The notes under the pieces are model-generated. The model had not been told where the DNA came from and searched no databases. It saw only the letters and a list, made by a program, of their open reading frames with translations. Shown here in pieces: positions 1,852 through 63,476 of a DNA stretch of 63,476 nucleotides (the stretch's first letter is position 1; every line of letters starts with the position of its first letter). Source of the stretch: an uncultured Bacteroidota bacterium (lineage in GTDB: Bacteria; Bacteroidota; Bacteroidia; AKYH767-A; JABDAW01); the NCBI GenBank assembly GCA_903844645.1, contig CAIMUP010000058.1:1-63476 (forward strand), in the 5' to 3' direction. Both the position numbers and the translations under genes were made by a program.

Positions 1852-2100
1852 CGGAGATACTTAATCGTTCGTCGGACTCACTTAATCGTCCATCTGAGAC
1901 CTGTAAAACTCATCGGAGACACTTAAATGCTCATCGGAGACACTCAATCGTCCATCTGAGACCTATAAAACTCATCGGAGACACTTAATCGTTCGTCGGA
2001 GACACTCAATCGTCCATCCGAGACATATAAAACTCATTGGAGACACTTAAATGTTCGTCGGAGACACTTAATCGTCAATCCGAAACACTTAATCGTCTCC
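1852..2100. repeat. 21-bp array 1 (12 units)
   Basis: Twelve head-to-tail units start at 1852, 1873, 1894, 1914, 1935, 1956, 1976, 1997, 2018, 2038, 2059 and 2080. Nine are 21 bp and every third early unit is 20 bp, which gives a 62-bp super-unit. The core is CGGAGACACTTAATCG, with a variant GAGACCTATAAAACTCAT. The array fills the gap between the divergent GHKL and sigma-factor genes and ends in GTCTCC, the inverse of GGAGAC. Confidence 0.9.
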
Positions 2101-6511: not shown

Positions 6512-6679
6512 GAATTTTTGGAAGAGCATAACGAATTTTTGGAAGAGCATAACGAATTTTGGGAATTCAATATTCTATTTTTGGAAAAGCATATTCTATT
6601 TTTGGAAAAAGATATTCTATTTTTGGAATTCGTTATACTATTTTTGGAATTCAATATTCTATTTTTGGAAAAGAATATG
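6512..6679. repeat. 21-bp array 2 (8 units)
   Basis: Eight exact 21-bp units start at 6512 and run without interruption to 6679. The common core is ATTTTTGGAA, with variable ends (AGAGCATAACG, AAAGCATATTCT, ATTCGTTATACT, ATTCAATATTCT). ATAACGAATT (units 1-3) and AATTCGTTAT (unit 6) are inverted copies. It fills the 6441-6801 gap inside a same-strand cluster. The apparent reading frame 6452-6802 is a by-product of the repeat and is not called. Confidence 0.9.
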
Positions 6680-6801
6680 GAATTGCAGAAGGAACGTACA
6701 GAATGGCTCCTTTACCCTCCGATGACGCTCCCAAATAGTATATTCGCCGCCCCGAAAAGAACCTTATCCTGCCGAATCCCTATAAATTCACTTTCAATCT
6801 G

Positions 6802-9219: not shown

Positions 9220-10056
9220 ATGATTAAGCAAGAGGAATTAGTAAGCGAAGCCTTTTCTATACAGGCAGCCGAATTTGATACCTTGGATAATGAAAATCCT
9301 ATTCTGCAATGGATGCGAAACATAGTAAGGCAATACGTTTTATCTTCGTTGAAGGGAAATAGCACCATCCTTGAATTAAATGCAGGCACTGGCTTGGATG
9401 CGGTGTATTTTTCCTTGCGAGGACATCATGTTTTGGCGACAGATAATGCAATGGGTATGATTCAGGAGATCAATAAGAAGATTAAAGCATACAGCCTCGA
9501 AGAAAACCTACAAGTAAGGCAATGTTCCTTCAACGATTTATCCCAAATAATGCCTCAAAGGTTCGATTGTATATACTCTAACTTCGGGGGATTGAACTGT
9601 GCCGAAGATTTACATAACGTCATCCAGCAATTCGATGATTTATTAAACCCGAACGGCATCGTAACCTTAGTAATCATGCCTCCGATATGCCCGTGGGAGC
9701 TACTATCCTTATTCAAAGGAAACTTTAAGATGGCATTCCGAAGGATGAAAGGTCTGGATTACAAATCCAGACCAGCGAATCGCAACCCGAGACCCGCAAA
9801 ATCGCATCTCGAGGGTATTTATTTCGATACTTATTACTATTCGCCGAGCTTTGTGAAGAAGGCTTTTGGTGCGAAGTATAAAATGATTCATCTGCAAGGA
9901 TTAGCCAGCATCAGCCTGCCGCCATATAAGGAAAAATTTGCCATCAACAATCCTAAATTATACAAAACCCTTGCCGCGATAGACCAGAAGATTAGTCGCA
10001 TGCCGCCCTTTTGTTATTGGGCGGACCATTATGTAATCTCATTCCTAAAGAAATAA
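9220..10056 (+). CDS. Class I SAM-dependent methyltransferase
   Basis: 278 aa. Motif I ILELNAGTGLDAVYFSLRGH (~48-66) departs from the usual GxGxG but keeps the AGTG core; the acidic residue after strand 2 is in LATDNAMGM, and the post-I region is FDCIYSNFGGLNC. The C-terminal half (KMAFRRMKGLDYKSRPANRN..., FDTYYYSPSFVKKAFG) is typical of UbiE/COQ5-like small-molecule methyltransferases. It is the last gene of the radical SAM cluster, 10 nt after the preceding stop; the APC permease after it has its own promoter. Confidence 0.8.
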   Translation: MIKQEELVSEAFSIQAAEFDTLDNENPILQWMRNIVRQYVLSSLKGNSTILELNAGTGLDAVYFSLRGHHVLATDNAMGMIQEINKKIKAYSLEENLQVRQCSFNDLSQIMPQRFDCIYSNFGGLNCAEDLHNVIQQFDDLLNPNGIVTLVIMPPICPWELLSLFKGNFKMAFRRMKGLDYKSRPANRNPRPAKSHLEGIYFDTYYYSPSFVKKAFGAKYKMIHLQGLASISLPPYKEKFAINNPKLYKTLAAIDQKISRMPPFCYWADHYVISFLKK

Positions 10057-10125: not shown

Positions 10126-11589
10126 ATGGAAGAAACAAAACCAACAGAATTTAAAAGATCATTAGGATTGATTGATGCGACAATGATAGTCGCCGGTTCG
10201 ATGATCGGTTCCGGCATTTTTATCGTCAGTGCCGACATCGGGAGAACGGTAGGCGGAGGCGGCTGGATGATGCTTGTATGGCTCATTACGGGCTTGGTAA
10301 CGATCATCGCGGCATTGAGTTATGGCGAGCTTGCGGGCATGATGCCCAAGGCAGGTGGGCAGTATGTTTACCTGCGCGAAGCCTACAATCCGCTGGCGGG
10401 TTTTGCTTATGGATGGACGCTTTTTATGGTGATACAAACGGGCACGATAGCCGCAGTAGCAGTAGGGTTCGCGAAATTCACGTCCGTCTTTATTCCGCAA
10501 TTGGGGCAGCGGAATATCTTGATGACCATCGGCTCGTTCAGCGTGAATGCCGCACAGATACTGGCAATCGCGACCATCGTACTCTTAACCATCACCAATA
10601 TTCGCGGCGTAAATCTGGGGAAAACCATCCAGACTTTCTTCACCACTACGAAGCTCATTGCGCTATTCGGATTAATAATTTGTGGCATCATCGTAGGCTC
10701 GAAAAGCTCTACGTTTTCATTAAATATGAATACCTTTTGGGATGCGAATACCACGACCGTGAATGACAAAGGAGTCCTCTCCATCATCCCGATTGCAGGT
10801 ATCGGAATCCTTACTGCCATGGGCGTAGCGATGGTGGGCAGCCTGTTCTCCAGCGATGCGTGGAACAACGTAACCTTCATTGCGGGGGAGATAAAAAATC
10901 CGCAAAAGAATATCCCGCTGGCACTCTTTTTCGGGACGCTGATCGTAACGATTATTTACATTTTGGCGAACTTAGTTTACATCATGGTTTTGCCGATGGC
11001 AGGTACGCCAAACGCGACCGACGTGATAGGGCATGGTATCCAATTCGCGACGGCAGACCGAGTAGGCACTGCCGCTACTTCCGCCATCTTTGGCGACATC
11101 GGGGTGTATGTCATGGCGGCATTGATTATGGTGAGCACGTTCGGCTGCAACAACGGCTTGATTTTAGCCGGTGCACGCGTTTATTATGCCATGTCGAAGG
11201 ACGGTTTATTTTTCCGCCAGGCGGGGGTATTAAATTCCAAGGACGTACCCGCGAATTCCCTTATCTTCCAAGGTATTTGGGCAAGCATTTTATGCCTTTC
11301 CGGCACCTACGGGCAGTTGTTGGATTACATTATTTTCGCCGCCTTATTATTTTATATTCTTACCATCGGCGGCATCTTTATCTTGCGCAGGAAAAAACCT
11401 GATGCACCCCGTCCTTACAGGGCTTGGGGCTATCCCGTACTGCCGGCATTATATATCCTCATCGCTGCCGCCATCTGCATAGATTTATTAATTTATAAGC
11501 CCGCCTTTGCCTACCCGGGATTAATAATTGTAGTCCTCGGAATACCGGTTTATTTTCTCCAGAAAAGAGGGAGGGGAATGGGGAGTTGA
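10126..11589 (+). CDS. APC-superfamily amino acid permease
   Basis: 487 aa inner-membrane transporter with about 12 hydrophobic segments. The first helix carries the conserved substrate-backbone motif (GSMIGSGIFIVSADIG, ~24-39), and ELAGMMPKAGGQYVYLREAY (~66-85) is the APC family signature. The C-terminal loop FILRRKKPDAPRPYRAWGYP is typical of the amino acid/polyamine/organocation family. Likely a proton-coupled amino acid symporter or exchanger; substrate unknown. Base composition is visibly richer in G+C (many GCG, CGC and GGC codons) than its neighbours. Its own promoter separates it from the radical SAM cluster. Confidence 0.88.
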   Translation: MEETKPTEFKRSLGLIDATMIVAGSMIGSGIFIVSADIGRTVGGGGWMMLVWLITGLVTIIAALSYGELAGMMPKAGGQYVYLREAYNPLAGFAYGWTLFMVIQTGTIAAVAVGFAKFTSVFIPQLGQRNILMTIGSFSVNAAQILAIATIVLLTITNIRGVNLGKTIQTFFTTTKLIALFGLIICGIIVGSKSSTFSLNMNTFWDANTTTVNDKGVLSIIPIAGIGILTAMGVAMVGSLFSSDAWNNVTFIAGEIKNPQKNIPLALFFGTLIVTIIYILANLVYIMVLPMAGTPNATDVIGHGIQFATADRVGTAATSAIFGDIGVYVMAALIMVSTFGCNNGLILAGARVYYAMSKDGLFFRQAGVLNSKDVPANSLIFQGIWASILCLSGTYGQLLDYIIFAALLFYILTIGGIFILRRKKPDAPRPYRAWGYPVLPALYILIAAAICIDLLIYKPAFAYPGLIIVVLGIPVYFLQKRGRGMGS

Positions 11590-11628: not shown

Positions 11629-11799
11629 GAGTTGCGAGGCATTAAATGGTGGTTGCGAAATAATATTTCGCAACTGCCAAATATAATTTCGCAGTTGTTA
11701 TTCAATATTAATAGTTGCGAAATATGTTTTCGCAACTGTGATGAAAGTTTTCGCAACTGCCAAATAATATTTCGCAACTGCGAAAAATGTTTTCGCAAC
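11629..11799. repeat. 21-bp array 3 (8 units, mixed orientation)
   Basis: TTTCGCAACTG cores start at 11666, 11687, 11728, 11749, 11770 and 11791, and the inverse GTTGCGA cores at 11631, 11652 and ~11714. Spacing is 21 bp, with one 41-bp step across an inverted unit. The array forms perfect inverted pairs such as TTGCGAAATaatATTTCGCAA. It occupies most of the 11590-11923 gap. Confidence 0.88.
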
Positions 11800-12001
11800 G
11801 GCTGATGAGCCAATCGGAAGTCTGTTTTATGCTTCCAAAAGAGCGATTTCCCTTATAAAATCTCTATTCTGAACGATTTTATGAGCGACTGTCAAAACAA
11901 AATTTATACTTAATTAAAAAATAAATGGCAAGAAAGAAAAAAGAAATGCACAAGAAATGGGAGCCTAAAGAGGAGAAAGGCTGGCTTGATTTAATCGCTC
12001 A

Positions 12002-18057: not shown

Positions 18058-18096
18058 AATGACCACCCCGATACATATCCCAAATACTAAAATGAG

Positions 18097-18297
18097 TAAA
18101 TCGCAATCGGTATGCTTGTCTACCAAATCAGTAGACCTGTCTACCAAATTGGTACGCTTGTCTACCAAATCGGTACGCCTGTCATTCAAGTTGGTACGCT
18201 TGTCTACCAAATCGGTACGCCTGTCATCCAAGTTGGTACGCTTGTCTACCAAATCGGTAGACCTGTCTACCAAGTTGGTACGCCTGTCTACCAACTA
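18097..18297. repeat. 21-bp array 4 (8 full units plus partial ends)
   Basis: Full units start at 18118 and then every 21 bp to 18265, with degenerate partial units at 18097 and 18286. The core GTCTACCAAATCGGTA alternates with GTCATTCAAGTTGGTA, and 3' ends alternate CGCTT, CGCCT and GACCT. Units are self-complementary, for example GTCTACC-AAATC-GGTAGAC. The array lies inside the respiratory operon, between the MNT gene and actC. Confidence 0.92.
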
Positions 18298-18357
18298 CTT
18301 CAACTACCCTATAATACCATTGTTAATCAATTAAATAATAAGAAATAATAAATCACT

Positions 18358-22178: not shown

Positions 22179-22229
22179 AATTTAATGACCACAAATATAA
22201 ATATCAGGAATATGGTGAATAAAATGGAG

Positions 22230-22418
22230 TTGGATTCCCACGATACCAAGTTGGATTCCAAGGAAACCAATTTGGATTCCCACGATACCAAATTGGATTC
22301 CAAGGAAACCAATTTGAATTTCCACGATACCAAGTTGGATTCCAAGGAAACCAAAATGGATTCCCACGATACCAAATTGGATTCCTACGATACCAAATTG
22401 GTTTCCAAGGATACCACA
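22230..22418. repeat. 21-bp array 5 (9 units)
   Basis: Nine exact 21-bp units run from 22230 to 22418. Two versions alternate: TTGGATTCCCACGATACC and TTGGATTCCAAGGAAACC, each closed by AA plus a variable base. Because the unit starts TTGG and ends CCAA, adjacent units create CCAAxTTGG palindromes. Four of the six reading frames are free of stops through the whole array. It fills the actF-coxB gap within the operon. Confidence 0.93.
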
Positions 22419-22481
22419 GCCAATTTTTATGCTCTGAATGCAATAACAATTAACAATAATCAAATTTAATATACCACAATA

Positions 22482-25417: not shown

Positions 25418-25530
25418 TGTTTAGAGGAATTCTGATACCTGATAAAACGGCTTCGAGAGAGGGAAAGGATACTTAAATAATGGAGCAGAGGTTGCCGATT
25501 CAATGAAAAAATATTTCCTGTTTTCCGATG

Positions 25531-25795
25531 CCTCTAAATGTTGGTATTTGGAGGTATTTCTACTTAGCGGATGCTCCAAATGTTGATTTTTGGAGGTATT
25601 TCTACTTAGCGGATGCTCCAAATGTTGATTTTTGGAGGTACTTCTACTTAGCGGATGCTCCAAATATTGACTTTTGGAGGTACTTCTACTTAGCGGATGC
25701 TCCAAATATTGACTTTTGGAGGTACTTCTACTTAGCGGATGCTCCAAATGCAGACTTTTGAAAAGAATCCTACTTTCCTTTGCCTCCAAATGTCG
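25531..25795. repeat. 21-bp array 6 (6 units of 42 bp)
   Basis: Units of exactly 42 bp start at 25531, 25573, 25615, 25657, 25699 and 25741, with a partial seventh at 25783. Each is two different 21-bp halves: GCTCCAAATGTTGATTTTTG and GAGGTATTTCTACTTAGCGG. CTCCAAA and TTTGGAG within a unit are inverted, giving a stem. It lies downstream of the coxA terminator. Confidence 0.92.
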
Positions 25796-31952: not shown

Positions 31953-31963
31953 AAGACTCCAAT

Positions 31964-31997
31964 TTTACTAAAGCTTTGAGCTTTAGTAAAGTTTTTT
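31964..31997 (+). terminator. Rho-independent terminator
   Basis: Twelve-bp perfect stem TTTACTAAAGCT/AGCTTTAGTAAA with TTG loop and a T6 tract, 12 nt after the stop of the 31125-31952 gene. Confidence 0.85.
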
Positions 31998-31998
31998 C

Positions 31999-32056
31999 AG
32001 CCACGAATTCCACGAATTATGGTTTCAATAATTCGTGAAATTCGTGGCTTTTTTTA
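31999..32056. repeat. AGCCACGAATT palindrome, copy 1
   Basis: Two 22-nt arms (31999-32020 and 32028-32049), complementary but for one mismatch, around a 7-nt loop, followed by a T tract. Arms begin AGCCACGAATT. A second copy lies at 43331-43383. It sits immediately behind a complete terminator. Confidence 0.8.
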
Positions 32057-32086
32057 TTTAATCATATTTCTTATTCATGAATTTCC

Positions 32087-32279
32087 TCGACATTAAAGTG
32101 TTCCCCCTCGACATTAAAGTGTCCCCCCTCGACATTAAAGTGTTCCCCTTCGACATTAAAGTGTTCCCCTTCGACATTAAAGTGTCCCCCTTCGACATTA
32201 AAGTGTCCCTCTTCGACATTAAAGTGTCCCCACTCGACATTAAAGTGTCCCCCCTCGACATTAAGATGTCGAGGGGGAA
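32087..32279. repeat. 21-bp array 7 (9 units, inverted last unit)
   Basis: Units start every 21 bp from 32087 to 32255. The core TCGACATTAAAGTGT is joined by a C-rich spacer (CCCCC, with T substitutions). The final unit runs into its own inverse: CCCCCTCGACAT-TAAG-ATGTCGAGGGGG, a 12-bp perfect stem. It fills the 31953-32406 gap together with the terminator and palindrome. Confidence 0.93.
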
Positions 32280-32355
32280 CATATCTGTGTCGTCTTTTTT
32301 TATCTTTAAGAAAGCCCTATTTATCATCACTTTACGCCTTACCCCCTCCGAAGCT

Positions 32356-32390
32356 ATTGCGGCAATGATTTCTTTTTTCCTAATTTTGCC
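32356..32390 (+). promoter_or_regulatory. Promoter block of T9SS beta-helix gene (shared with 60054-60088)
   Basis: A 35-nt block ending in the -7 box TAATTTTG (32381-32388) and GCC. It is identical at 33 of 35 positions to 60054-60088, upstream of another T9SS-secreted protein gene. Confidence 0.65.
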
Positions 32391-32406
32391 ATTCAATAAA
32401 TAATTA

Positions 32407-33690
32407 ATGAAGATGAAAACACGGATACTATTAATCGTAATGCTCGCCATCCTGGGCTTGAGCGGGAAAGCTACAAATGTAAGTGGTGGAATTTTTTCTA
32501 ATACAACATGGATTTTGGTAAATAGTCCATACATCGTTACCGATACCGTGGTGGTATTCCCTGGGGTAACGTTGACTATTGAAGCAGGGGTTGTGGTAAA
32601 ATTTGATACTAATCAGTATCTCGAAATCAGGCAGGCACAACTTATAGCAATAGGTACTGCCTTTGATTCAATAACCTTTACTAGCAATGTTATAACTTCA
32701 AATAATAGTTTTTACCCTGGTATTTATCTAAATGGGGGATCAATGATTACACAAATAAATTATTGTAGTTTTTCAAACGCAAACAAGGCTGTTTATACAA
32801 GTGGGTTTTCTTATACTTTGAATATTAAAAATTCTACCTTTCAAAATAATTATTATGGATTATGGTTTCCCTCAACTTTAAATGTCATAAATATAGATTC
32901 CTGTAATTTCTATAACCATGGATGGGGAGGTATTTTGGGGTATGGTCACTTAACTATAGATCATTGTGAATTTTCAAATAACCTCCAAGGTGCTGTGTTG
33001 GAAGGAGATGCGGTGATGAAAAATTGCATTGTAGATTCTAATAACTATGGAATACTTTCGGTTCATGGTGATACAATAATAAATAATCAGATAAAATATA
33101 ATGGGACAGGAATTTATTTACAAAATGGAGGCTTCCCCCTTGCATACGTTTTTCAAAATATTATTGAATATAACTCTACAGGAATAGAAACATTTAATTC
33201 TAACAACATTATTATATGCAATAGAATTTGCGGTAATACCTCTTTGGGAGTATACTATAATGTTCCTAACAATAACTCAAGTATCCAGAATAACTATTGG
33301 TGTACTACAGATTCAACCACGATAGCTTCTTATATCTATGATGGATATGATAACATAAATTTAGGTCTTTTATCATTTATGCCAATTGATACAAATCAAT
33401 GCTCTCCGCAAATAGTAACTCTTACAAATGAAAAAATTATAGAAAAGAATTCCCTTCTCCTCTACCCCAATCCCTTCTCCACTCAAACAATACTGACCAT
33501 TCAAGGCACCTATCATAATCCCACCTTATTAATCTACAACCTCCTTGGGCAAGAAGTAAGAAGCATACCCATAGGCACAAGCAAGCAAGTAACCATTCCC
33601 CGCGGCAACCTACCCGCAGGTATGTATTTCTATAAATTGATAGAAGATACTAAAGAGGTCATCGGCATCGGGAAGCTGCTGGTGGAATAA
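32407..33690 (+). CDS. T9SS-secreted right-handed beta-helix protein
   Basis: 427 aa. Signal peptide to ~22 (ILLIVMLAILGLSGKA). The body (~25-335) is a series of short strands rich in Asn, Gly, Tyr and Ile (TLTIEAGVVVKFDTNQYLEI, ILGYGHLTIDHCEFSNNLQG, NIIICNRICGN), as in parallel beta-helix (PbH1) proteins. The last ~80 residues (LLYPNPFSTQTILTIQG ..., LPAGMYFYKLIEDTKEVIG) are a type A T9SS C-terminal sorting domain. The mature protein is therefore expected on the cell surface or outside. Possible carbohydrate binding or lyase role, not proven. Confidence 0.85.
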   Translation: MKMKTRILLIVMLAILGLSGKATNVSGGIFSNTTWILVNSPYIVTDTVVVFPGVTLTIEAGVVVKFDTNQYLEIRQAQLIAIGTAFDSITFTSNVITSNNSFYPGIYLNGGSMITQINYCSFSNANKAVYTSGFSYTLNIKNSTFQNNYYGLWFPSTLNVINIDSCNFYNHGWGGILGYGHLTIDHCEFSNNLQGAVLEGDAVMKNCIVDSNNYGILSVHGDTIINNQIKYNGTGIYLQNGGFPLAYVFQNIIEYNSTGIETFNSNNIIICNRICGNTSLGVYYNVPNNNSSIQNNYWCTTDSTTIASYIYDGYDNINLGLLSFMPIDTNQCSPQIVTLTNEKIIEKNSLLLYPNPFSTQTILTIQGTYHNPTLLIYNLLGQEVRSIPIGTSKQVTIPRGNLPAGMYFYKLIEDTKEVIGIGKLLVE

Positions 33691-33703
33691 CAGGGTTTAA
33701 AGT

Positions 33704-34573
33704 TTAAACCTCAAACTCCTCCAACAAACTTTCCAGTTCCGCTACCTTGTCATCGTGCCCCAGTTTGGTATAAGCAAAGATGAGATTGCGAATCATACGC
33801 TGAATAATTTCGACATTCGTGCAGGGCTCGTAGTAGTGCGGATGCGGCTTAATTTTTAATTGCTTAAGGAATTTATCTATCTCGTTTCTCGGAAAAATAG
33901 ACCCCTTGCTGAAGGCATTGATGTAGAATAAAACCTTCACCTCTTGCTCCCCCGGCAACGGTTCAGATGGGTTCTCATTCAGGTATGCCAACACAAAATG
34001 TTCCGGCAGATTCACCCCAAAGATAGGCATCTCCAAGTCCTTCGCCAGCTCCGCATAGATAATCGAAAGCAACAACGGATTACCCTTTTTAGTCTCCAAA
34101 ACAGAGTTGATAAAAGAGTTCTGCGGAGCATGATAATTCGTCGTATTCCCCCCGAAACCATGCCCATCGAAGAAGACATGATTCAGGATGCGAACCTTCT
34201 CCATCGCCGTCAGATGGTCGTTCATTTCTATCCACGCATCGCGATGAATCTCGGCTAATTGCGCCCTTATCTTCGCCTCATCGAGGTCAGGATATTGATA
34301 CCGCGCAATGAGGATGGCACCTTTTAATAAATCAGGAGACTCCTCGCGGCTCCACAGTTTCAGTTCTGCTTTAAGGTTTTGGAATTGGATTTTATGAATT
34401 ATTTCTTCGATATTATGCTGCAAGGTCGGGTCGAAGGAATGTTCCCATGCACTCTCTAAGTAAGGGATTACGGTCGCCCCAAACGATAATATCCGCTCCT
34501 GAATCAGTCTTGATATTTCAGGATCAGGGTCGTCCAGCAGCTTGATTAATGATTCTATTTCTTTGGTATCCAT
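33704..34573 (-). CDS. SirB1-like transglutaminase-fold protein
   Basis: 289 aa. The centre (LNHVFFDGHGFGGNTTNYHA ~130-149, then GNPLLLSIIYAELAKDLEMP and GVNLPEHFVLAYL) is the SirB1 N-terminal signature, a transglutaminase-like fold in which the usual catalytic Cys is not evident. An N-terminal HEAT-like helical region (~1-60) and a C-terminal TPR-like tail (MIRNLIFAYTKLGHDDKVAE) flank it. Biochemical role unknown. It faces the beta-helix gene across a 13-nt gap that contains a small TTTAAA inverted repeat. Confidence 0.78.
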   Translation of the reverse strand: MDTKEIESLIKLLDDPDPEISRLIQERILSFGATVIPYLESAWEHSFDPTLQHNIEEIIHKIQFQNLKAELKLWSREESPDLLKGAILIARYQYPDLDEAKIRAQLAEIHRDAWIEMNDHLTAMEKVRILNHVFFDGHGFGGNTTNYHAPQNSFINSVLETKKGNPLLLSIIYAELAKDLEMPIFGVNLPEHFVLAYLNENPSEPLPGEQEVKVLFYINAFSKGSIFPRNEIDKFLKQLKIKPHPHYYEPCTNVEIIQRMIRNLIFAYTKLGHDDKVAELESLLEEFEV

Positions 34574-34648
34574 TTGTAACTATTTGAGGTGGTAAAACTC
34601 CTAAAAAAACAGGTTGATATGAATCTGTTTTCTATAAATTATCAACGG

Positions 34649-35908
34649 TTAATTGTTGAAAGTCCGTAACGCTTTTCCTTTCATCTTCCAATTGATGTAA
34701 GGAGTATTTTTCGATTTGGAAAGGATGTCCTTTTCAGTGAATGTCCACTCCGATTCGGTATCGAATAAGGTAAGGTTTGCACGCTCTCCTTCATTGATTT
34801 GAGGGATGGCAAGGTTTAATAGTTTCCTTGGATTAATGGCTATCTTTTGAATTAATTCTTCGGTGGATAAAGTATCGCTCAAGAAGTTATTCGCCAAGCC
34901 GAAGAAGGTCTCCAACCCGATACTACCATTGGCTGCATGCTCAAATTCACACTGTTTGTTTTCAATGTTTTCGGGAGTATGATCGCTGCAAATAACATCT
35001 ATGGTTCCATCTTTTAAACCTTGTTTGAGAGCAGTAATATCATCCTTCGATCTCAAGGGCGGAAGGAACTTGAAGTTGCTATCGAAGTCGTGCAGGTATT
35101 CATCATCGAGGATTAAATTATTAATGCAAACATCGGCAGTTACCTTAAGTCCTTTTGCCTTAGCCTGCCTGATTAACTCAACAGAATGAGCAGTGGAAAC
35201 ACAAGTAAAATGGATGCGGGCATCGGCGTATTCAGCAAGATTAAGATCACGAATAATCATTACCTCTTCGGACAACGAAGGGATCCCTTTAAGACCCAAT
35301 GAAGTACTCATAATACCTTCATGCATCTGACCATTGTGGGCAAGGCTTTCATCATAAGGAAAGGAAACTACGATACCATTGAAGTTCTTGGAATACATCA
35401 AAGCTCGTAACATCAATCCGCTTTCTTTGATGGGGTTCTTATCATCAGTAAAAGCAACAGCACCGGAAGAATGCATGTCATACATTTCAGCAAGTTCCTT
35501 ACTTTCTCGCTTTACTGAAATAGCACCGAAAGGAAAGACGTGAACGGCATGACCTTTTGCGCTGTTGATTAAGTATTCGATACTTGATTTATTATGTATG
35601 GAAGGATTGGTTGAAGGCATAATACCAACACCCGTGAAGCCACTGTTTGCAGCTACTTTCAAACCATTTTGCAAGTCTTCTTTATACTCATAACCAGGAT
35701 CGCAGAAGTTTACTTTCATATCGAACCAACCAGGAGAAATGTGTTGCCCTTTGGCATCAATCATCTCTACATCTTTTCCAATAATTCTAACCGCTCTATT
35801 AATCTTTTCGATGATTCCATCTTTAATAAAAATATCCCTTTTCTTCTTGTTATGAGGAGAATTGGGATCAACGATTTTTACGTTTTTAATTAGTAGTTTC
35901 ATGGGCAT
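34649..35908 (-). CDS. Dihydroorotase-family amidohydrolase lacking the metal-binding HxH
   Basis: 419 aa (ATG at 35908; the ATG at 35902 is equally possible). Overall it aligns with the PyrC/AllB amidohydrolase barrel: N-terminal beta sandwich (MKLLIKNVKIVDPNSPHNKK), GFTGVGIMPSTNPSIHNKSS, the late Asp in ICSDHTPE and AINPRKLLNL. The diagnostic DxHxHxRDPG is here D63-M-K65-V-N67-F-C69-DPG, so both metal-ligand His and the Arg are missing. It is probably a non-catalytic homologue or one with altered chemistry. Stop and start of this and the BatA-like gene are 5 nt apart, so they form an operon. Confidence 0.85.
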   Translation of the reverse strand: MPMKLLIKNVKIVDPNSPHNKKKRDIFIKDGIIEKINRAVRIIGKDVEMIDAKGQHISPGWFDMKVNFCDPGYEYKEDLQNGLKVAANSGFTGVGIMPSTNPSIHNKSSIEYLINSAKGHAVHVFPFGAISVKRESKELAEMYDMHSSGAVAFTDDKNPIKESGLMLRALMYSKNFNGIVVSFPYDESLAHNGQMHEGIMSTSLGLKGIPSLSEEVMIIRDLNLAEYADARIHFTCVSTAHSVELIRQAKAKGLKVTADVCINNLILDDEYLHDFDSNFKFLPPLRSKDDITALKQGLKDGTIDVICSDHTPENIENKQCEFEHAANGSIGLETFFGLANNFLSDTLSTEELIQKIAINPRKLLNLAIPQINEGERANLTLFDTESEWTFTEKDILSKSKNTPYINWKMKGKALRTFNN

Positions 35909-35913
35909 TTATT

Positions 35914-37956
35914 TTATCTCCATAGTCTTAATAATAGTTCTTCCACGGCAAAGAAAATAAGGGCAAAGATGATGCAATATTTCCAAAGTTGGATGCCGCT
36001 TTCTAATTGTGCTAATTGCTTAGACATGCTTGGCAAATCAGATTTAATGATCTCCGCATTGTTGATATGATATTGTGCTGCCAAATCTTCTAATTCGCTT
36101 GGGGTATAGCATTTCAAATCGGATTCTTTGCGGTCATAATTGAAGGAGTAGGTGGCTAATGATTTATTATCCGATGAGAGATGATAATTGCCTGCTGATT
36201 TGATTTGATTGTGGACAAAGATGGAGTAGATATTATTCGCCATTCGATGCTCTGGTATGACATCGAAACTCAACTCCTTGTTGACAAGATGGAAGACATT
36301 GTCACCGGTTAATTGCATCTTATCATAATCGAAAGTTTCGTCTCTGCCTATGGTATAAGAGAGGCGATTATTGGTAACGCTTAACAATGCTATCTTGAAG
36401 AACGTTGGGACGAAGATGGCATGTTGCACGAAGTTGCTAAAGTCTTTATTCAGTGGGATTGAGGAGAGATAGACTTTACCTTTTTCTACAGAATACTTGC
36501 TCAAGAAACTCTCGCCATTCTCTAAAGTCAGGAGGGGTTGTTCGGTTGTTTTGGTATTCTTTGTGAAGCTATAATGTTTACTTACTACCGGCAAGTCGAG
36601 GTTGTCATTTAGCTTTGTGAAGACTTCTTTATAGACATCATCATCGAGGTTTATTTTGCCGACTTTCATAGAAGTTGATTGAAGGTTGCCGAAGTTGTTG
36701 CAGCCGAGCATTTGCATCAAATCATTGTATGAAGATTGATTGATATCTGCCGCAGGAAATACTATTAAACTACCGCCTTTGCGAATGTATTTATTCAATT
36801 CCTGAATCAAGCCGGAGGAGATCGTATTGAGCTCGTTCAGGATGATTAGATTATTAGAATTAAAGCCGGAATAATCAATTTGTTTCTCTGAAGAATTCTT
36901 GAAAATGAAAGAAGAATCCTTACCATACAATGCATGAAGATAAGCATTTTCTTTTTCTCCATTAATGCAAAGAATATTTAGTTGAGTGGCTATCTCGAAG
37001 GAGAAAAAATAGTTGTCGTCGAAGGTGACGGGATGATCGGCAATGGAGATTAATCCATCTTGCCAACCTGTTTCGGAGAGGGTGAAGGAGAGGGTATCAA
37101 TTACTGAATTATTAGCAGGAATGGTAACGCTGCCGGGAGACTTTTGGGTGCCATTAATTAATAATTTGACGGGTATATTTTCCACCGTTTCGTTGGAATA
37201 ATTCTTTATCCGTGCCAAAAGATGAATCGTTTCATTCACCTTCCTTACCGGGGATGAAAACCAGCAACTGTCTATAAAAACATTGCTTATTTTTTGTGAT
37301 TCAAAGGGAACAAAACGGATGCTCAAGGCAGTATCTAATTTTATTTTATCCAAATCTGCCATTGTTTTTTGGAAGTCGGAAAGGAGATAGGCGAGGGGCT
37401 TTTTTGCATGGGCAGAATTAACCGTTTCATCTTGACGGGAAAGGATTTCGGAGACGTTTTTTGTCGAGGGGCTGCTCTTCACTTCATCTAATTGTTGGAG
37501 GAATTCTTCGCGATTCATCAAACGCTGATGACGGGCTTCAAAATCATTCGTCAGGAGTTGAAATTTATCCGAAGGTTTGTATGCTTTGGCAATCTCTCCT
37601 GCCTTATTCTTGGCCTGTTCCAGCAATGTTCCGTTCTTCCCGACGGCATCCATGCTGAAGGAATTATCTACATAAATACTGACGGCTCTTTCGGATTCTA
37701 CAACGGCATTTTTAGCGACCGGAATGTAAGGCTGGGCGAAGGCGAATACCAAGAAACATACCGCCAATATTCTCATTAATAATACCAACAAATGTTTCAA
37801 TCGCGATTTCGATTGGGTGTCGCGCTTGACTTCTTTGATGAAACGGACATTGGTGAAGGCTATCTTTTTGAACTTGCGGAAGTTGAAAAGATGGATTATT
37901 ATCGGTATTGCGACGGCGGTGAGTGCGAATAAGAAGGTAGGGAATACAAAATTCAT
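35914..37956 (-). CDS. BatA-type membrane protein with VWA-like domain
   Basis: 680 aa. The N-terminal ~75 residues with two membrane helices (FPTFLFALTAVAIPIIIHLF and LLVLLMRILAVCFLVFAFAQ) match the BatA N-terminal domain. A von Willebrand A-like domain follows with MIDAS motif D97-N-S-F-S (IYVDNSFSM). The long middle (~250-640) is beta-rich and periplasmic, and a C-terminal helix (YCIIFALIFFAVEELLLRLW) anchors the end. Bat proteins are linked to stress tolerance and envelope functions in Bacteroidota; the exact role of this stand-alone form is unknown. A TATTTTCG box at 37962-37969 lies almost on the ATG. Confidence 0.82.
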   Translation of the reverse strand: MNFVFPTFLFALTAVAIPIIIHLFNFRKFKKIAFTNVRFIKEVKRDTQSKSRLKHLLVLLMRILAVCFLVFAFAQPYIPVAKNAVVESERAVSIYVDNSFSMDAVGKNGTLLEQAKNKAGEIAKAYKPSDKFQLLTNDFEARHQRLMNREEFLQQLDEVKSSPSTKNVSEILSRQDETVNSAHAKKPLAYLLSDFQKTMADLDKIKLDTALSIRFVPFESQKISNVFIDSCWFSSPVRKVNETIHLLARIKNYSNETVENIPVKLLINGTQKSPGSVTIPANNSVIDTLSFTLSETGWQDGLISIADHPVTFDDNYFFSFEIATQLNILCINGEKENAYLHALYGKDSSFIFKNSSEKQIDYSGFNSNNLIILNELNTISSGLIQELNKYIRKGGSLIVFPAADINQSSYNDLMQMLGCNNFGNLQSTSMKVGKINLDDDVYKEVFTKLNDNLDLPVVSKHYSFTKNTKTTEQPLLTLENGESFLSKYSVEKGKVYLSSIPLNKDFSNFVQHAIFVPTFFKIALLSVTNNRLSYTIGRDETFDYDKMQLTGDNVFHLVNKELSFDVIPEHRMANNIYSIFVHNQIKSAGNYHLSSDNKSLATYSFNYDRKESDLKCYTPSELEDLAAQYHINNAEIIKSDLPSMSKQLAQLESGIQLWKYCIIFALIFFAVEELLLRLWR

Positions 37957-37961
37957 CGGGG

Positions 37962-37969
37962 CGAAAATA
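37962..37969 (-). promoter_or_regulatory. Variant -7 box, nearly leaderless
   Basis: TATTTTCG on the minus strand differs by one base from TAnnTTTG and lies only 5 nt from the ATG, so the transcript may be nearly leaderless. The same variant occurs at 57276-57283. Confidence 0.45.
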
Positions 37970-38100
37970 AGTAAAAGTTGGTAGATGAACGGGAATTAGG
38001 GGGTGGAATTATAAAAGCCAACCTGAATGGCTTCTTGGGGGTATTTTGTGAATGCCAGATAATGGGAATAATTATGATTATCAAGTATATAAGTCATAAA

Positions 38101-38218
38101 AGAAAGCGTAAATTTCCCAAATTTGCGCTTTTATTTCCTAAATTTGCGCGTAAATTCCCCGAGTTTGCTCTTAAATCTTTTGGGTTTGCGCGCAAATTTC
38201 TCTGGTTTGCGCTTTAAT
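38101..38218. repeat. 21-bp array 8 (5 units plus degenerate flank)
   Basis: TTTGCGC-type cores start at 38122, 38143, 38164, 38185 and 38206, exactly 21 bp apart. AAATTTGCGC is linked to a T/C-rich half (TTTTATTTCC, GTAAATTCCCC). TTTGCGCGCAAA (38185-38196) is a perfect palindrome. It lies between the BatA-like gene and the terminator of the 38295 gene. Confidence 0.87.
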
Positions 38219-38225
38219 TTCCAAA

Positions 38226-38257
38226 AAAATCCCGTGAATTGGTGTATTCACGGGATT
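38226..38257 (-). terminator. Rho-independent terminator of the 38295-39299 gene
   Basis: Stem AATCCCGTGAAT/ATTCACGGGATT (38228-38239 with 38246-38257) and, reading on the minus strand, a T7 tract. It lies 37 nt past the stop at 38295. Confidence 0.88.
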
Positions 38258-38294
38258 CATTAGTGAGGGTAATTCGTTTACCGTTTTATCTGTT

Positions 38295-39299
38295 TTAGAA
38301 TCGGTATGGGATGCCGATTCGGCATTTCACAGTGGCATAAACATTATCGAAAGTATCTTGCGATATTCCGGGTAATACCGCCAATTCGGCTCCTAAAGAG
38401 AAGACCGAAAAGTAATGAACTTCGGCACCTATTCTCCATCCTAATCCTGATTTCGGAACGGTATTATCCAAGCGATAACGGGTGGAATAAGCGGGAATCG
38501 TGTAGGCACTGTTGTTGGTATTTGCCTTGGTTGTCCAAAAAATATCATCAATATTGTTGCGCATCGGGATGATGATATTGACATAATATTTTAAGAATGC
38601 GCGGTTGCTCTTTTCGCCGTATTCAGAGAAGGTTGCGGATACATCGGTGATGGTTCCGAAGGCGGCTCCGATATTTAAAAAAGTATAATCTTGCATGGTG
38701 GTAAAATGGCTGTTGCCGACATCGCCGGGGGTGGTGGTTTTTACCCAAACATTTTTGGCTGATAATTGCTCTACATCGAACTTTCCATCCACATGCAGCA
38801 AGTTATATCCAGTTGCCATGCCTGCTTCAGGACCTACGAACCATTCGTAATTGGCATCCACATGGGTAATGGTATTTAAGGTAATACGGGAGCCGATATT
38901 CTCTGACTTCAGGGTAATAGGAATTTTACCTTCCTTTTCATTGCGGAAATAATATCCGGCTAAGAATTCAAAGTTCTTCTTCTTCAAATCGCCATTCACG
39001 GACGAGGCGAGGATAGGGTCGGAGGCTAAATTCAAATCCACATACGTCATCGTGTATTCCAATTTGGCGTAGAAGTTTTTGTACAACGCAGTGATTTGAG
39101 GATCGAGGCTCATCATAAATGTTTTGCTAATGCCCATATCGAGGATGCCGAGATCGCCACGGATAAAGCCGCCGCCAGTATTGGCATTCAAATCAGAATA
39201 AGTCAGGGTTTCTCCATCGCCATGCTTACCGAAAAGCTGTGCAAACGAAGTAGTTGAAAATGCGACAAGCGCAACGATTATTAATAGATAATTCTTCAT
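38295..39299 (-). CDS. Secreted or outer-membrane protein, unknown function
   Basis: 334 aa. Signal peptide MKNYLLIIVALVAFSTTSFA-Q. The body has barrel-like strands (YKNFYAKLEYTMTYVDLNLA, KKNFEFLAGYYFRNE, RAFLKYYVNIIIPMRNNIDD) and ends ATVKCRIGIPYRF, with a terminal aromatic Phe as in outer-membrane beta-barrels. It lies 12 nt downstream of a lipoprotein gene and so is probably its operon partner; a strong terminator follows. Confidence 0.75.
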   Translation of the reverse strand: MKNYLLIIVALVAFSTTSFAQLFGKHGDGETLTYSDLNANTGGGFIRGDLGILDMGISKTFMMSLDPQITALYKNFYAKLEYTMTYVDLNLASDPILASSVNGDLKKKNFEFLAGYYFRNEKEGKIPITLKSENIGSRITLNTITHVDANYEWFVGPEAGMATGYNLLHVDGKFDVEQLSAKNVWVKTTTPGDVGNSHFTTMQDYTFLNIGAAFGTITDVSATFSEYGEKSNRAFLKYYVNIIIPMRNNIDDIFWTTKANTNNSAYTIPAYSTRYRLDNTVPKSGLGWRIGAEVHYFSVFSLGAELAVLPGISQDTFDNVYATVKCRIGIPYRF

Positions 39300-39311
39300 G
39301 GTATAATATTA

Positions 39312-39968
39312 TTATGGTTGGGTCATGTTAGCTGAAATGGTAAAAACAACAGTGTTAACGGAATAGAATACCCATTTTTCACTGCATAATGTAACTGCGT
39401 ATTTACCGCCTGTTTTGGTTACGGTAACAGTACCTGCAAGCCCTAATGGATAGGCTTGATAGTACCCATACATATGCGACTGTCCTCCGTTATAATACAA
39501 ATAGATATACGCTTCACCGGTAGTTGTTGGCGGTGAATCAACATCGGTATAGGTATGGGTAGTTAATGGCGCACTGCCGAGTAACTTTATCCAAATAGTA
39601 CCAAAGGTACTTGTTCCTTTAAATTCAAATAACCCCGAACCGGAATTATAACTCGAACTCGTAAGGGTAATTGGATAAGTGCCTTCACCATAACCTTGAC
39701 CAGGATAGTCGCAGGAAATGACAAGTGAATTAGTGCCGACAGAACAAGGTAAAGAAGTGGCAGTACATGCTTTGCAAGGACCTCCGCAGTCAATGTCGGT
39801 TTCGCCACTATCCAAAACCCCATTCGAGCAATGGTGCGGCGTTGGCGTAATAGTATCCAACGGATACCCTTCGGCTTTAATGTTTCTTTCAATGTGGTCG
39901 CGGCAACCGATATATAATAACGGAATGACGAACAAGACCACCACGAGGGGGATAAAGTACTTTTTCAT
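39312..39968 (-). CDS. Lipoprotein with Cys-rich DCGGxCxxC motif
   Basis: 218 aa. Signal sequence with lipobox LLYIGC (Cys22). Residues ~47-68 (HCSNGVLDSGETDIDCGG-PCKAC) are the short Cys/Asp-rich motif often found near the N-terminus of Bacteroidota surface proteins, probably disulfide-bonded and perhaps Ca-binding. The remainder is beta-rich (GTYPITLTSSSYNSGSGLFE, AGTVTVTKTGGKYAVTLCSE) and could be one Ig-like or jelly-roll domain. First gene of a two-gene unit with the 38295 product. Confidence 0.75.
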   Translation of the reverse strand: MKKYFIPLVVVLFVIPLLYIGCRDHIERNIKAEGYPLDTITPTPHHCSNGVLDSGETDIDCGGPCKACTATSLPCSVGTNSLVISCDYPGQGYGEGTYPITLTSSSYNSGSGLFEFKGTSTFGTIWIKLLGSAPLTTHTYTDVDSPPTTTGEAYIYLYYNGGQSHMYGYYQAYPLGLAGTVTVTKTGGKYAVTLCSEKWVFYSVNTVVFTISANMTQP

Positions 39969-40121
39969 TTTCTTTTATATTTAATTAATGTTAGTAAGGG
40001 CGTAAATTAAATAAAAAATTTGTTAATCCAACCCTCCAATTCCTGAAAATTTTTGGCAAAGAGATGCCCCGTAACGGAAATAACGCTGATAATGATTGTT
40101 TTAACATGAATCCGGCTTGGG

Positions 40122-40263
40122 ATTTTGTGTATCAAACCTGACATTTTGTGTATCAGAATTGACATTTTGTGTATCAGAATTGACATTTTGTGTATCAGAA
40201 TCGAGATTTTGTGTATCAGAATCCTTCCTCCCTAAAAGGCAAAAGGGTTTTGATACACAAAAT
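40122..40263. repeat. 21-bp array 9 (5 units plus inverted terminal copy)
   Basis: ATTTTGTGTATCA cores start at 40122, 40143, 40164, 40185 and 40206, exactly 21 bp apart. The inverse TGATACACAAAAT stands at 40251-40263, so the last units can fold onto it. It fills the 39969-40328 gap between two minus-strand genes. Confidence 0.92.
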
Positions 40264-43210: not shown

Positions 43211-43280
43211 TACCTACATTCTTAAATGTAGGTAATACATTCTTGAATGTAGGTCATACATTTTGAATTGTAGGTGGTAT
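43211..43280. repeat. 21-bp array 10 (3 units)
   Basis: ACATT cores start at 43216, 43237 and 43258, exactly 21 bp apart. Each unit is itself palindromic: ACATTCTTGAATGTAGGT, with CCTACATT...AATGTAGG stems. It is the shortest array of the set. Confidence 0.82.
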
Positions 43281-43330
43281 TGTTTGAACTCGCAGCAGGA
43301 TTATCTCTTATGGGATTGATAGAACAAGAA

Positions 43331-43383
43331 AAGCCACGAATCTCACGAATTAAATGTACCCTAATTCGTGAAATTGGTGGCTT
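43331..43383. repeat. AGCCACGAATT palindrome, copy 2
   Basis: Arms 43331-43352 and 43362-43383 (starting AAGCCACGAAT) are complementary with two mismatches around a 9-nt loop. Same family as 31999-32056. It lies 20 nt beyond the 3' end of the giant minus-strand gene and may terminate it. Confidence 0.75.
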
Positions 43384-55371: not shown

Positions 55372-55602
55372 ACTCCGTCCAGCTCAGACGGGACTCCGTC
55401 CAGCCCAGAAATAGTTATCGCTGGCTTGGAAATAGTTATCGCCAGCTCAGACGGGACTCCGTCCAGCCCAGAAATAGTTATCGCTGGCGTGGAAATAGTT
55501 ATCGCCAGCCCAGACGGGACTCCGTCCAGCCCAGAAATAGTTGTGGCTGGGCTGGAAATAGTTATCGCCAACCTGGAAATAGTTATCGCCAGCCCAGACT
55601 AC
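55372..55602. repeat. 21-bp array 11 (11 units, 63-bp super-unit)
   Basis: Exactly 231 bp, eleven 21-bp units. Three kinds rotate: ACTCCGTCCAGCCCAG, GTTATCGCTGGC and GTTATCGCCAGC, each with its own tail, giving a 63-bp period. CCAGCCCAG (55527-55535) and CTGGGCTGG (55547-55555) are perfect inverses. It lies in the 55302-55962 gap. Confidence 0.93.
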
Positions 55603-55677: not shown

Positions 55678-55887
55678 TTTGAATTCTATATCTCATGCTT
55701 TGAATTTGATATCCCGATAAACAAATCAGATATTTCAGGCTTAATATCCATAATCCCAATCCACAAACTCTTACATTTAAGGCACGAAACACGTGTTTCG
55801 TGCCTTAAATGTAAGAGTTCGTTCTTTGAATGTACGAGTTCATGCCTTGAGATTATGAGTTCATCTTTCGAGTGGATGAACGGGTAC
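55678..55887. repeat. 21-bp array 12 (10 degenerate units around a 54-bp palindrome)
   Basis: Units are recognisable every 21 bp at both ends: TTTGAATTCTATATCTCATG and TTTGAATTTGATATCCCG at the left, TTTGAATGTACGAGTTCATG, CTTGAGATTATGAGTTCATC and TTCGAGTGGATGAAC at the right. The centre is a perfect palindrome with 27-bp arms (55766-55792 and 55793-55819). The array therefore flips orientation in its middle. Confidence 0.78.
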
Positions 55888-59577: not shown

Positions 59578-59654
59578 GTTTAAGGTTTAAAGTCTAAGGT
59601 TTAAGGTTTTGGATACGTCACAAAACCTTAAACCTTAGACTTTAAACCTTAAAC
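59578..59654. repeat. 33-bp perfect inverted repeat of TTTAAGG type
   Basis: Arms 59578-59610 and 59622-59654 are perfectly complementary (GTTTAAGGTTTAAAG... and ...CTTTAAACCTTAAAC) around an 11-nt loop. It begins one base after the lysS stop and is directly followed by hairpin copy C. A diverged equivalent stands at 63091-63170, again followed by a hairpin copy. Confidence 0.85.
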
Positions 59655-59657
59655 TTA

Positions 59658-59710
59658 ATCATCGTCATGTTGCACCACCGCGAAAAGCGGATGGTATCAC
59701 ATGACGATGA
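59658..59710. repeat. Dispersed two-stem hairpin, copy C
   Basis: Outer stem TCATCGTCATGT (59659-59670) with 59699-59710, TGC/ATC internal loop, inner stem ACCACCGC/GCGGATGGT with GAAAA loop. Same architecture as copies A, B, D and E. Confidence 0.8.
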
Positions 59711-59767
59711 AAAAACTTTAGTAAGGTTCATTTAAAACCTTCCATGCAAGACCATTTTGTAGCCACC

Positions 59768-59980
59768 TTAAATCATTTACGCCCTTCCTTAAATCATACT
59801 ACCACAAGATTTAAATCATTTACGCCCGGACTTAAATCATTTACACCCGGACTTAAATCATACTACCACAAGATTTAAATCATTTACACGCCGACTTAAA
59901 TCATTTACACTCGGACTTAAATCATTTACACCCAGACTTAAATCATTTACGCCCAGACTTAAATCATTTACACTTTAATC
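59768..59980. repeat. 21-bp array 13 (10 units)
   Basis: TAAATCAT cores start at 59769, 59790, 59812, 59833, 59854, 59876, 59897, 59918, 59939 and 59960; spacing is 21 bp, with two 22-bp steps where a variant unit (ATACTACCACAAGAT) is used. The main unit is TTAAATCATTTACACCC plus GGAC or AGAC. GATTTAAATC palindromes form at the variant joints. Confidence 0.92.
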
Positions 59981-63075: not shown

Positions 63076-63090
63076 CGCATTCTCAAGGTG

Positions 63091-63170
63091 GTTTAAGGTT
63101 TAAGGATTAAAGTTTAAGGTTTTGGTTGTCGTTCAATAACCTTAAACCTTAGACTTTAAACCTTAAACTT
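63091..63170. repeat. Imperfect inverted repeat of TTTAAGG type
   Basis: Left part GTTTAAGGTTTAAGG and right part ACCTTAAACCTTAGACTTT mirror the perfect element at 59578-59654 with mismatches; hairpin copy D follows directly, as copy C does there. Confidence 0.75.
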
Positions 63171-63340: not shown

Positions 63341-63344
63341 TGCT

Positions 63345-63476
63345 CAAAACTTTTGAGTGATTAGCCAAAACTTTTGAGTAATTACTCAAAACCTCTGAGT
63401 GATTAGCCAAAACTTTTGAGTAATTACTCAAAACCTTTGAGTGATTAGCCAAAACCTTTGAGTGAGCACTCAAAAC
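63345..63476. repeat. 21-bp array 14 (6 units, continues past window end)
   Basis: CAAAACTTTTGAGT cores start at 63345, 63366, 63387, 63408, 63429, 63450 and 63471 (last cut). Tails GATTAGC and AATTACT alternate, giving a 42-bp super-period, and TTTTGAGTAATTACTCAAAA (63372-63391) is a perfect palindrome. Confidence 0.92.

Follow-up and report, generated by a model that had tools for sequence, protein, structure and literature searches.

Strand switching as a putative source of the inverted ends and palindromic units of genus-specific 21-bp intergenic arrays in an uncultured Bacteroidota bacterium

How does a tandem array come to end in an inverted copy of its own unit? The question is raised by a stretch of 63,476 nucleotides from an uncultured Bacteroidota bacterium (hereafter the window), which holds 14 arrays. 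These are numbered 1 to 14 from left to right, and we infer that this order matches the numbering of an earlier reading made from the letters alone, which had reported that array 7 ends in CCCCCTCGACAT-TAAG-ATGTCGAGGGGG and that array 9 consists of five direct copies of ATTTTGTGTATCA followed by one inverse TGATACACAAAAT. Both were found as described (Table 1), the direct copies in array 9 starting at 40122, 40143, 40164, 40185 and 40206. The promoter of a gene for a secreted protein (32407-33690) lies downstream of array 7, which is repeated beside a paralogue at G000:C9, and the G5-run boundary at the array's end is seen again in several paralogues with differing units.

Dyad symmetry in the window

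We compared the symmetry of each array with shuffles that permute the unit columns while keeping the periodicity. Significant dyad symmetry was found in 10 of the 14 arrays (3, 4, 5, 6, 8, 10, 11, 12, 13 and 14), with a permutation p of at most 0.003 in most of them, while arrays 1 (p 0.74), 2 (p 0.09), 7 (p 0.73) and 9 (p 0.83) showed none. The claim of the earlier reading that each array would fold as RNA into long stems was overstated, since the flagship arrays 7 and 9 have an inverted end unit but no internal palindrome, and arrays 1 and 2 likewise lack a significant dyad. Taken together, the observation stands at the two flagship sites and in the majority of arrays, and as a whole it is partly confirmed. 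The window also holds a perfect 54-bp palindrome (55766-55819) at the left edge of array 12, which that reading did not mention, and an intrinsic-terminator-like hairpin (~38230-38260) after array 8; units related to those of array 13 lie upstream of paralogous genes.

Table 1. Arrays and inverted end units of the window
Feature	Position	Strand	Description	Evidence
Array 1	1852..2096	.	superperiod 62 (20+21+21); without self-complementarity	TRF, dyad test
Array 2	6512..6684	.	period 21/63 bp; dyad not significant	TRF, dyad test
Array 3	11654..11807	.	palindromic units TTGCGAAA...TTTCGCAA	dyad p <0.001; fold z ~-6 on both strands
Array 4	18105..18294	.	units TTGGTA...TACCAA	dyad p 0.002
Array 5	22230..22416	.	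units TTGGATTCC...CCAA, 42-bp superperiod	dyad p 0.001
Array 6	25527..25750	.	superunit of 42 bp whose halves are inverted (CTCCAAAT ... ATTTTTGGAG)	dyad p 0.001
Array 7	32085..32264	.	21-bp unit CGACATTAAAGTGTCCCCCCT, 8.6 copies; non-palindromic internally	TRF, dyad test
Array 7 terminal inverted unit	32250..32277	.	CCCCCTCGACAT TAAG ATGTCGAGGGGG, 28-nt hairpin	sequence check
Array 8	38106..38226	.	palindromic unit GCGTAAATTTCCCAAATTTGC	dyad p 0.003
Array 9	40122..40223	.	5 direct ATTTTGTGTATCA copies, period 21; non-palindromic internally	TRF, dyad test
Array 9 inverted unit	40251..40263	.	single TGATACACAAAAT past array end	sequence check; 15-nt inverted flank match
Array 10	43211..43280	.	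units CTACATT CTTA AATGTAG	dyad p 0.003
Array 11	55379..55570	.	63-bp superunit	dyad p 0.025
Array 12 and palindrome	55766..55864	.	array proper 55797-55864	dyad p 0.045
Array 13	59767..59973	.	superperiod 64 (22+21+21)	dyad p 0.001
Array 14	63343..63476	.	CTCAAAACTTTTGAG units; contig end cuts array	dyad p <0.001; fold z -4.2/-5.0

Arrays are held at 21 bp while their units change

The genome contains ~950 intergenic short-repeat arrays, whose unit is nearly always 21 bases long. Within the 1.54 Mb scanned, 380 of 394 tandem arrays had a period of 21 or 42/63 (+/-1), a density of ~246/Mb by a looser criterion than that of the survey of prokaryotic satellites by Subirana and Messeguer (2019; PMC6749651). 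A stricter cut (at least 84 bp, peak lag identity at least 0.85) retained 312 arrays of this genome in the same ~1.54 Mb, and these, together with the TRF calls, are satellites as that survey defines them (internally regular arrays of four or more tandem units, each 10-200 nt long). Matching units were spaced by 21 bp 1298 times, by 20 bp 12 times and by 22 bp 16 times, and never by 18 or 24 bp. The unit sequence, on the other hand, is mostly specific to the array, 174 arrays falling into 145 unit clusters. No sub-period of 7 or 10-11 bp was found in the units, and a search of the array edges for a shared leader or mobile element by k-mer enrichment gave only paralogous promoters and terminator families. 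By crude counts, convergent gene gaps are enriched in arrays (34 arrays versus 43 gaps that are 100 bp or longer), and divergent gaps hold arrays as well. The short-read assemblies break at arrays (of 75 left contig ends, 35 fall inside one), so that the class is probably under-reported.

The trait is common to two genomes of the same genus and hardly seen in other relatives. Between species, array positions were kept (10/43 versus 5/155) despite changed units: the place orthologous to array 4 is occupied in G002 and G001 by arrays with different units, and that of array 5 carries GCAAAGCTCCTTTGC units in G002. At one locus (L106 versus L237) the array was absent from G002, and no clear single-copy seed was seen there. 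These data show that the arrays are genus-specific intergenic minisatellites whose length is held at 21 bp and whose unit sequence is free to change.

Twenty-one base pairs are also seven codons, and arrays encoding heptapeptide-repeat proteins would be consistent with the several arrays that lie inside ATG-started open frames (for instance 32077-32403 in the window) and with an excess of open frames (2.68 versus 2.0 in shuffles). We rejected this reading as wholly improbable, since neither codon-phased variation (z -0.3) nor frame-preserving length changes were found, unit-length errors being 1 bp and never 3; furthermore, stop depletion is alike on both strands (1.15 versus 1.20 open frames), and the superperiods of 62 and 64 break the frame. 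Products of a diversity-generating retroelement (DGR), a retron or another reverse transcriptase were likewise rejected, since G000, at 98.7% completeness, gave no RVT_1 match.

Self-complementarity and strand switching

Across the genome, array self-complementarity exceeded that of period-keeping shuffles (Wilcoxon p 5e-26), a result replicated in a second species, G002 (p 3e-5). The mean dyad z was 1.29, with p<0.05 in 36% of 288 arrays, the excess also held against dinucleotide-preserving shuffles, and at least 14 of 21 positions were matched in 28% of array units versus 8% of genomic 21-mers. The folding comparison proposed in the sequence-only reading gave energies below those of period-keeping shuffles (z -1.26 on one strand and -1.38 on the other; p<=0.05 in 35-38% of 128 arrays), rather than the equal energies that it had named as speaking against it. 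Sense and antisense strands folded equally (p 0.69), so that nothing points to RNA, and the idea that RNA folding is the relevant level was not borne out; within-unit covariation was weak as well (z ~1.9). That the arrays act as RNA hairpin chains or cruciforms, serving as terminators, insulators or mRNA stabilisers, would agree with the low fold energies and with the crude enrichment in convergent gaps, but we regard it as quite unlikely given the equal folding of the two strands, the arrays in divergent gaps, the weak covariation, and the lack of any Rfam family in the window.

Inverted copies are not confined to arrays 7 and 9. The genome-wide search for inverted terminal units, also proposed in that reading, found 29 of 146 arrays, versus 0.4 expected, with an exact inverted copy 12 nt or longer in their flanks of 80 bp, and inverted arms that matched exactly over 18 nt or more occurred in 9.8% of array-end windows versus 1.5% of array-free intergenic windows (~6x). 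The mark of template switching is new sequence that is the reverse complement of sequence nearby, and this is what we observed: variant 10-mers recurred nearby 508 times as the reverse complement versus 37 times reversed and 12 times complemented (in 82, 20 and 9 arrays, respectively), and in the non-palindromic arrays alone the counts were 79 versus 15 and 5 for the control transforms. Changes at mismatched opposed columns created a pair in 61.5% of cases versus 33.8% on shifted axes (56 arrays up, 18 down). In a paralogous gene family, moreover, arrays matched their own inverted flank more closely than the inverted flanks of the other members (p 0.0004).

The symmetry could in principle date from birth, since palindromes are recognised slippage sites and slippage duplication would favour those that already existed, giving palindromic units without later strand switching. 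A dyad excess without strong covariation would fit such a bias. We nevertheless consider it unlikely, since it leaves unexplained both the reverse-complement variants in non-palindromic arrays and the inverted end units of arrays that are not themselves palindromic, for instance 7 and 9.

The reading that we favour, with somewhat better than even confidence, is that these are fixed-period, lineage-specific satellites in which quasipalindrome-type template switching gave rise to the inverted ends and the palindromic units, the 21 bp being probably held by the helical phase of B-DNA. During replication, a nascent strand within an array would switch briefly to copying the opposite strand, leaving a copy in reverse complement next to the array or making an imperfect palindrome in a unit perfect, and slippage or unequal exchange would then spread the product along the array. 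Such switching is reported to create reverse-complement copies and to homogenise the arms of inverted repeats (PMC8794818, PMC8604942). The events are read here from footprints within genomes, with one genome per species compared. The hairpin-primed or template-switching origin suggested earlier is thereby partly supported, in its template-switching half; as to the birth of arrays from an inverted unit, inverted copying inside pre-existing arrays fits the data equally well. Paired columns were less variable than unpaired ones (0.196 versus 0.281, a comparison biased by choosing the pairs from the consensus), which selection on structure would produce too.

The loss of nucleases that trim hairpins or flaps may have permitted the switching, as a correlation suggests. 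SbcD reached the cut-off in none of the 21 genomes of the order searched, and XseA (ExoVII) is missing from G000, G001 and G002, but G003, which belongs to the same family, has it; absences in G002, which is 58% complete, count for little. The link is weak, however, since ExoVII is also absent from many members of the order whose small sampled portions showed no arrays. Loss of mismatch repair was ruled out, MutS being present.

Template switching by itself does not fix the period at 21. The length is probably held by helical phase, two turns of B-DNA being our leading idea. The arrays might then be platforms in two-turn register on which a DNA-binding (nucleoid) protein, either dimeric or polymerising, would read the helical phase and the two-fold symmetry instead of the sequence, the palindromes being kept for a dyad every 10.5 bp. 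Consistent with this are the period and its 1-bp errors, the equivalence of the strands in folding, the conserved positions, the less variable paired columns, and a predicted coherent bending at period 21 that is double the genomic background (0.83 versus 0.37; 0.40 at 20 and 0.43 at 22), from a curvature model based on wedge parameters. Nevertheless, real units bend like column-permuted ones (z 0.1), and we rejected units optimised for curvature, having found nothing beyond the effect of the period. Since covariation is also weak, about two-thirds of arrays have no significant dyad, and no candidate protein is known, we hold this reading to be doubtful. Equally tentative is its wider form, in which ~1000 arrays of the genus under selection on repeat length alone would constitute a sequence-agnostic chromosomal architecture, with units rewritten in both directions by strand switching and their symmetry read by a nucleoid protein.

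Comparison with known systems

With ~1000 satellites of one length and nearly as many sequences, selection on repeat length becomes separable from selection on sequence, and strand-switch mutation, usually inferred from rare events, can be read hundreds of times within one genome. The arrays also offer a test of how the hairpin-trimming nucleases SbcCD and ExoVII limit strand switching.

The nearest class is that of prokaryotic satellites (PMC6749651), likewise mostly short, with at least four tandem units of 10-200 nt and many genome-unique sequences. That survey, in which periods are mixed and many of the repeats are coding, gives 23 satellites/Mb for its densest bacterial replicon and 89/Mb for its densest archaeon, whereas the arrays described here have a single period and are intergenic, at the higher density given above by the looser criterion. 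Quasipalindrome template-switch mutation (PMC8794818, PMC8604942) similarly yields reverse-complement copies near the template, arms made alike and multi-base changes, but it is known from scattered single events, while the footprints seen here are concentrated in tandem arrays throughout a genome. The TAACTGA heptamer repeats of Beggiatoaceae, Cyanobacteria and some Bacteroidetes (PMC4679880) also form many intergenic direct-repeat arrays in few lineages with no assigned function; they consist of one fixed 7-bp sequence, in contrast to a 21-bp unit of no fixed sequence. REP/BIME elements are intergenic, palindromic and multi-copy too, but they have one sequence and a RAYT transposase in common, and this identity was rejected because there is no shared dispersed palindrome among the 145 unit clusters and the genome has a single Y1_Tnp match. 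Finally, CRISPR arrays too consist of direct repeats, often with dyadic units, but these are separated by unique spacers; this identity was rejected as well, since the arrays described here have no spacers, their units being contiguous at 21 bp, and carry a different unit at each locus.

Number and period of the arrays

The window comprises the complete contig G000:C58 from a draft Bacteroidota genome of 3.84 Mb. About 14 tandem arrays are present in it; they repeat at 21, 42 or 63 bp, apart from two at 62 and 64, are almost all intergenic, and have units that differ from array to array. In the 1.54 Mb surveyed, about 40% of this draft with its short contigs, 380 of 394 arrays belonged to the same class (period 21, 42 or 63, plus or minus 1; the 21-class), amounting to 246/Mb and about 4.8% of the sequence; extrapolation to 3.84 Mb gives an estimated total of about 950 arrays. 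The units formed 145 clusters among 174 arrays, and by crude ORF calls the gaps holding arrays were tandem in 63, convergent in 34 and divergent in 23 cases. Judged by contig ends, 21-class arrays appear to break the assembly; since 35 of 75 contig left ends fall within such an array, copy numbers may be wrong.

Matching units were spaced by 21 bp in 1298 cases, by 20 in 12 and by 22 in 16, and none of the spacings counted was 18 or 24. Because length errors are of one base around 21 and never of three, the period suggests a physical length, that of two turns of B-DNA; coding was excluded as its cause. Coherent bending was predicted at period 21 (0.83, against 0.37 for background, 0.40 for period 20 and 0.43 for period 22), as for any sequence repeated at 21 bp, and real arrays were predicted to bend no more than permuted ones. 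These predictions fit, but do not prove, selection on the period without selection on the sequence.

Some arrays lie within ATG-started open frames (see table). A common start (ATGACCAC.., MTTxIxI) is found in those at 18060, 22179 and L006, and at 18060 it is conserved in two genomes of the same genus (G001 and G002) despite different repeats. No codon signature was found in the arrays, which may include a small translated class.

Symmetry and inverted copies

The sequence-only reading held that the arrays are self-complementary and would form RNA stems, and both sequences that it named were present exactly as given (32250-32277 and 40122-40263). With its arrays 1-14 numbered as inferred here, self-complementarity was significant in 10 of the 14, but not in arrays 1, 2, 7 and 9, against period-keeping shuffles, which permute the columns of aligned units and preserve period, composition and copy divergence. 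The same excess was seen over 288 clean arrays of the own genome (mean z 1.29; p<0.05 in 36%; Wilcoxon p 5e-26), held against dinucleotide-preserving shuffles (mean z 1.27) and genomic 21-mers, and was replicated in 45 arrays of G002 (p 3e-5, mean z 1.54). RNA folding energies likewise fell below those of period-keeping shuffles (mean z -1.26 for one strand and -1.38 for the other), so the result that would have refuted the sequence-only reading did not appear. No RNA-level signal was seen, however, sense and antisense folding being no different (p 0.69), and the symmetry belongs to the DNA level. Hairpins are unlikely to be under strong selection, since units show little internal covariation (z about 1.9) and some two thirds of the arrays have no significant dyad; paired columns vary less than unpaired ones, a comparison biased by picking pairs from the consensus.

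For 29 of 146 arrays, the 80-bp flanks contained an exact inverted match 12 nt or more in length, with 0.4 such arrays expected when flanks are swapped. Exact inverted repeats with arms of at least 18 nt occurred in 9.8% of array-end windows versus 1.5% of array-free intergenic windows. The 97-nt repeat at L011 may represent an invertible segment or may stem from the assembly. Within a paralogue family, arrays showed a closer fit to their own flank, inverted, than to the inverted flanks of other members (p 0.0004). Variant 10-mers (in-array, at least three positions off consensus and unique in direct orientation) recurred nearby as the reverse complement in 508 cases, the reversal in 37 and the complement in 12; in non-palindromic arrays the counts were 79, 15 and 5. 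At opposed columns mismatched in the consensus, single changes yielded a Watson-Crick pair in 61.5% versus 33.8% for shifted axes (56 arrays up, 18 down), a measure that does not separate palindrome decay from palindrome repair.

Coordinates of inverted repeats, open frames and other repeats (L-numbers, other sampled loci; G000, own genome)
Feature	Location	Detail
Perfect inverted repeat, no loop	window 55766-55819	26-27 bp arms
Perfect inverted repeat, no loop	L018:13218	26-27 bp arms
Long perfect inverted repeat	L116	32 bp
Long perfect inverted repeat	L020	46 bp
Long perfect inverted repeat	L011:3498-3762	97 bp; flanks a 21-class array
Open frame holding array	window 32077-32403	
Open frame holding array	window 18060-18330	
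Open frame holding array	window 22179-22470	
Open frame holding array	L006:17642-17910	
Terminator-like palindrome	window 31957-32055, 43317-43381	GCCACGAATTyCACGAATT...AATTCGTGGC; several genome copies, also on G000 C118, C141, C98, C1
Hairpins with tandem-heptamer arms	window 59578-59658, 63090-63170	GTTTAAG / AAACCTT
Array of 21-bp palindromic units	L058:11271-11545	ATACAATTGTAT; distant Bacteroidetes MAG RH-15aug16-189
7-bp tandem arrays	L162:3560-3976	G002
7-bp tandem arrays	L170:2116-2198, 9355-9412, 10371-10417	G003, same family

Proposed copying mechanism and possible nuclease background

We infer that strand-switch copying makes the inverted ends, the symmetry and the reverse-complement variants: it would generate reverse-complement segments in and beside arrays, and its products would afterwards spread along the array. 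Such copying would be the quasipalindrome or template-switch process already described (PMC8794818, PMC8604942), which does not by itself fix the 21-bp period. SbcD was found at the cut-off in none of the 21 genomes of the order searched, and ExoVII (XseA) in none of three genus members, the same-family genome having XseA. A permissive background is thereby suggested, but is only a lead, because several other genomes of the order also lack XseA. MutS is present, and no reverse transcriptase was found in the genome.

Turnover and occurrence in relatives

At two window loci, G002 carries arrays at the corresponding place with unrelated units, as does G001 at one of them. Arrays kept their position at 10 of 43 gene sides, more often than in the control (5 of 155; Fisher p 1e-4). 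Some 20 secreted-protein paralogues have arrays upstream of the same promoter, with units that are nearly identical, show graded resemblance or have no evident relation. One G002 locus is missing its array entirely. Arrays therefore persist, switch unit, and are gained or lost.

The trait is present in same-genus genomes, each species being represented by one draft: G001 has 111/Mb (54 kb sampled), and 484 kb of G002 contained 66 arrays. None occurred in the 39 kb sampled from G003, a member of the same family, and other Bacteroidota had two across 80 loci (0.98 Mb). The array at L058 is possibly an independent occurrence. In a published satellite survey that used a different criterion, the densest bacterial replicon had 23 satellites/Mb (PMC6749651), compared to 246/Mb in the own genome.
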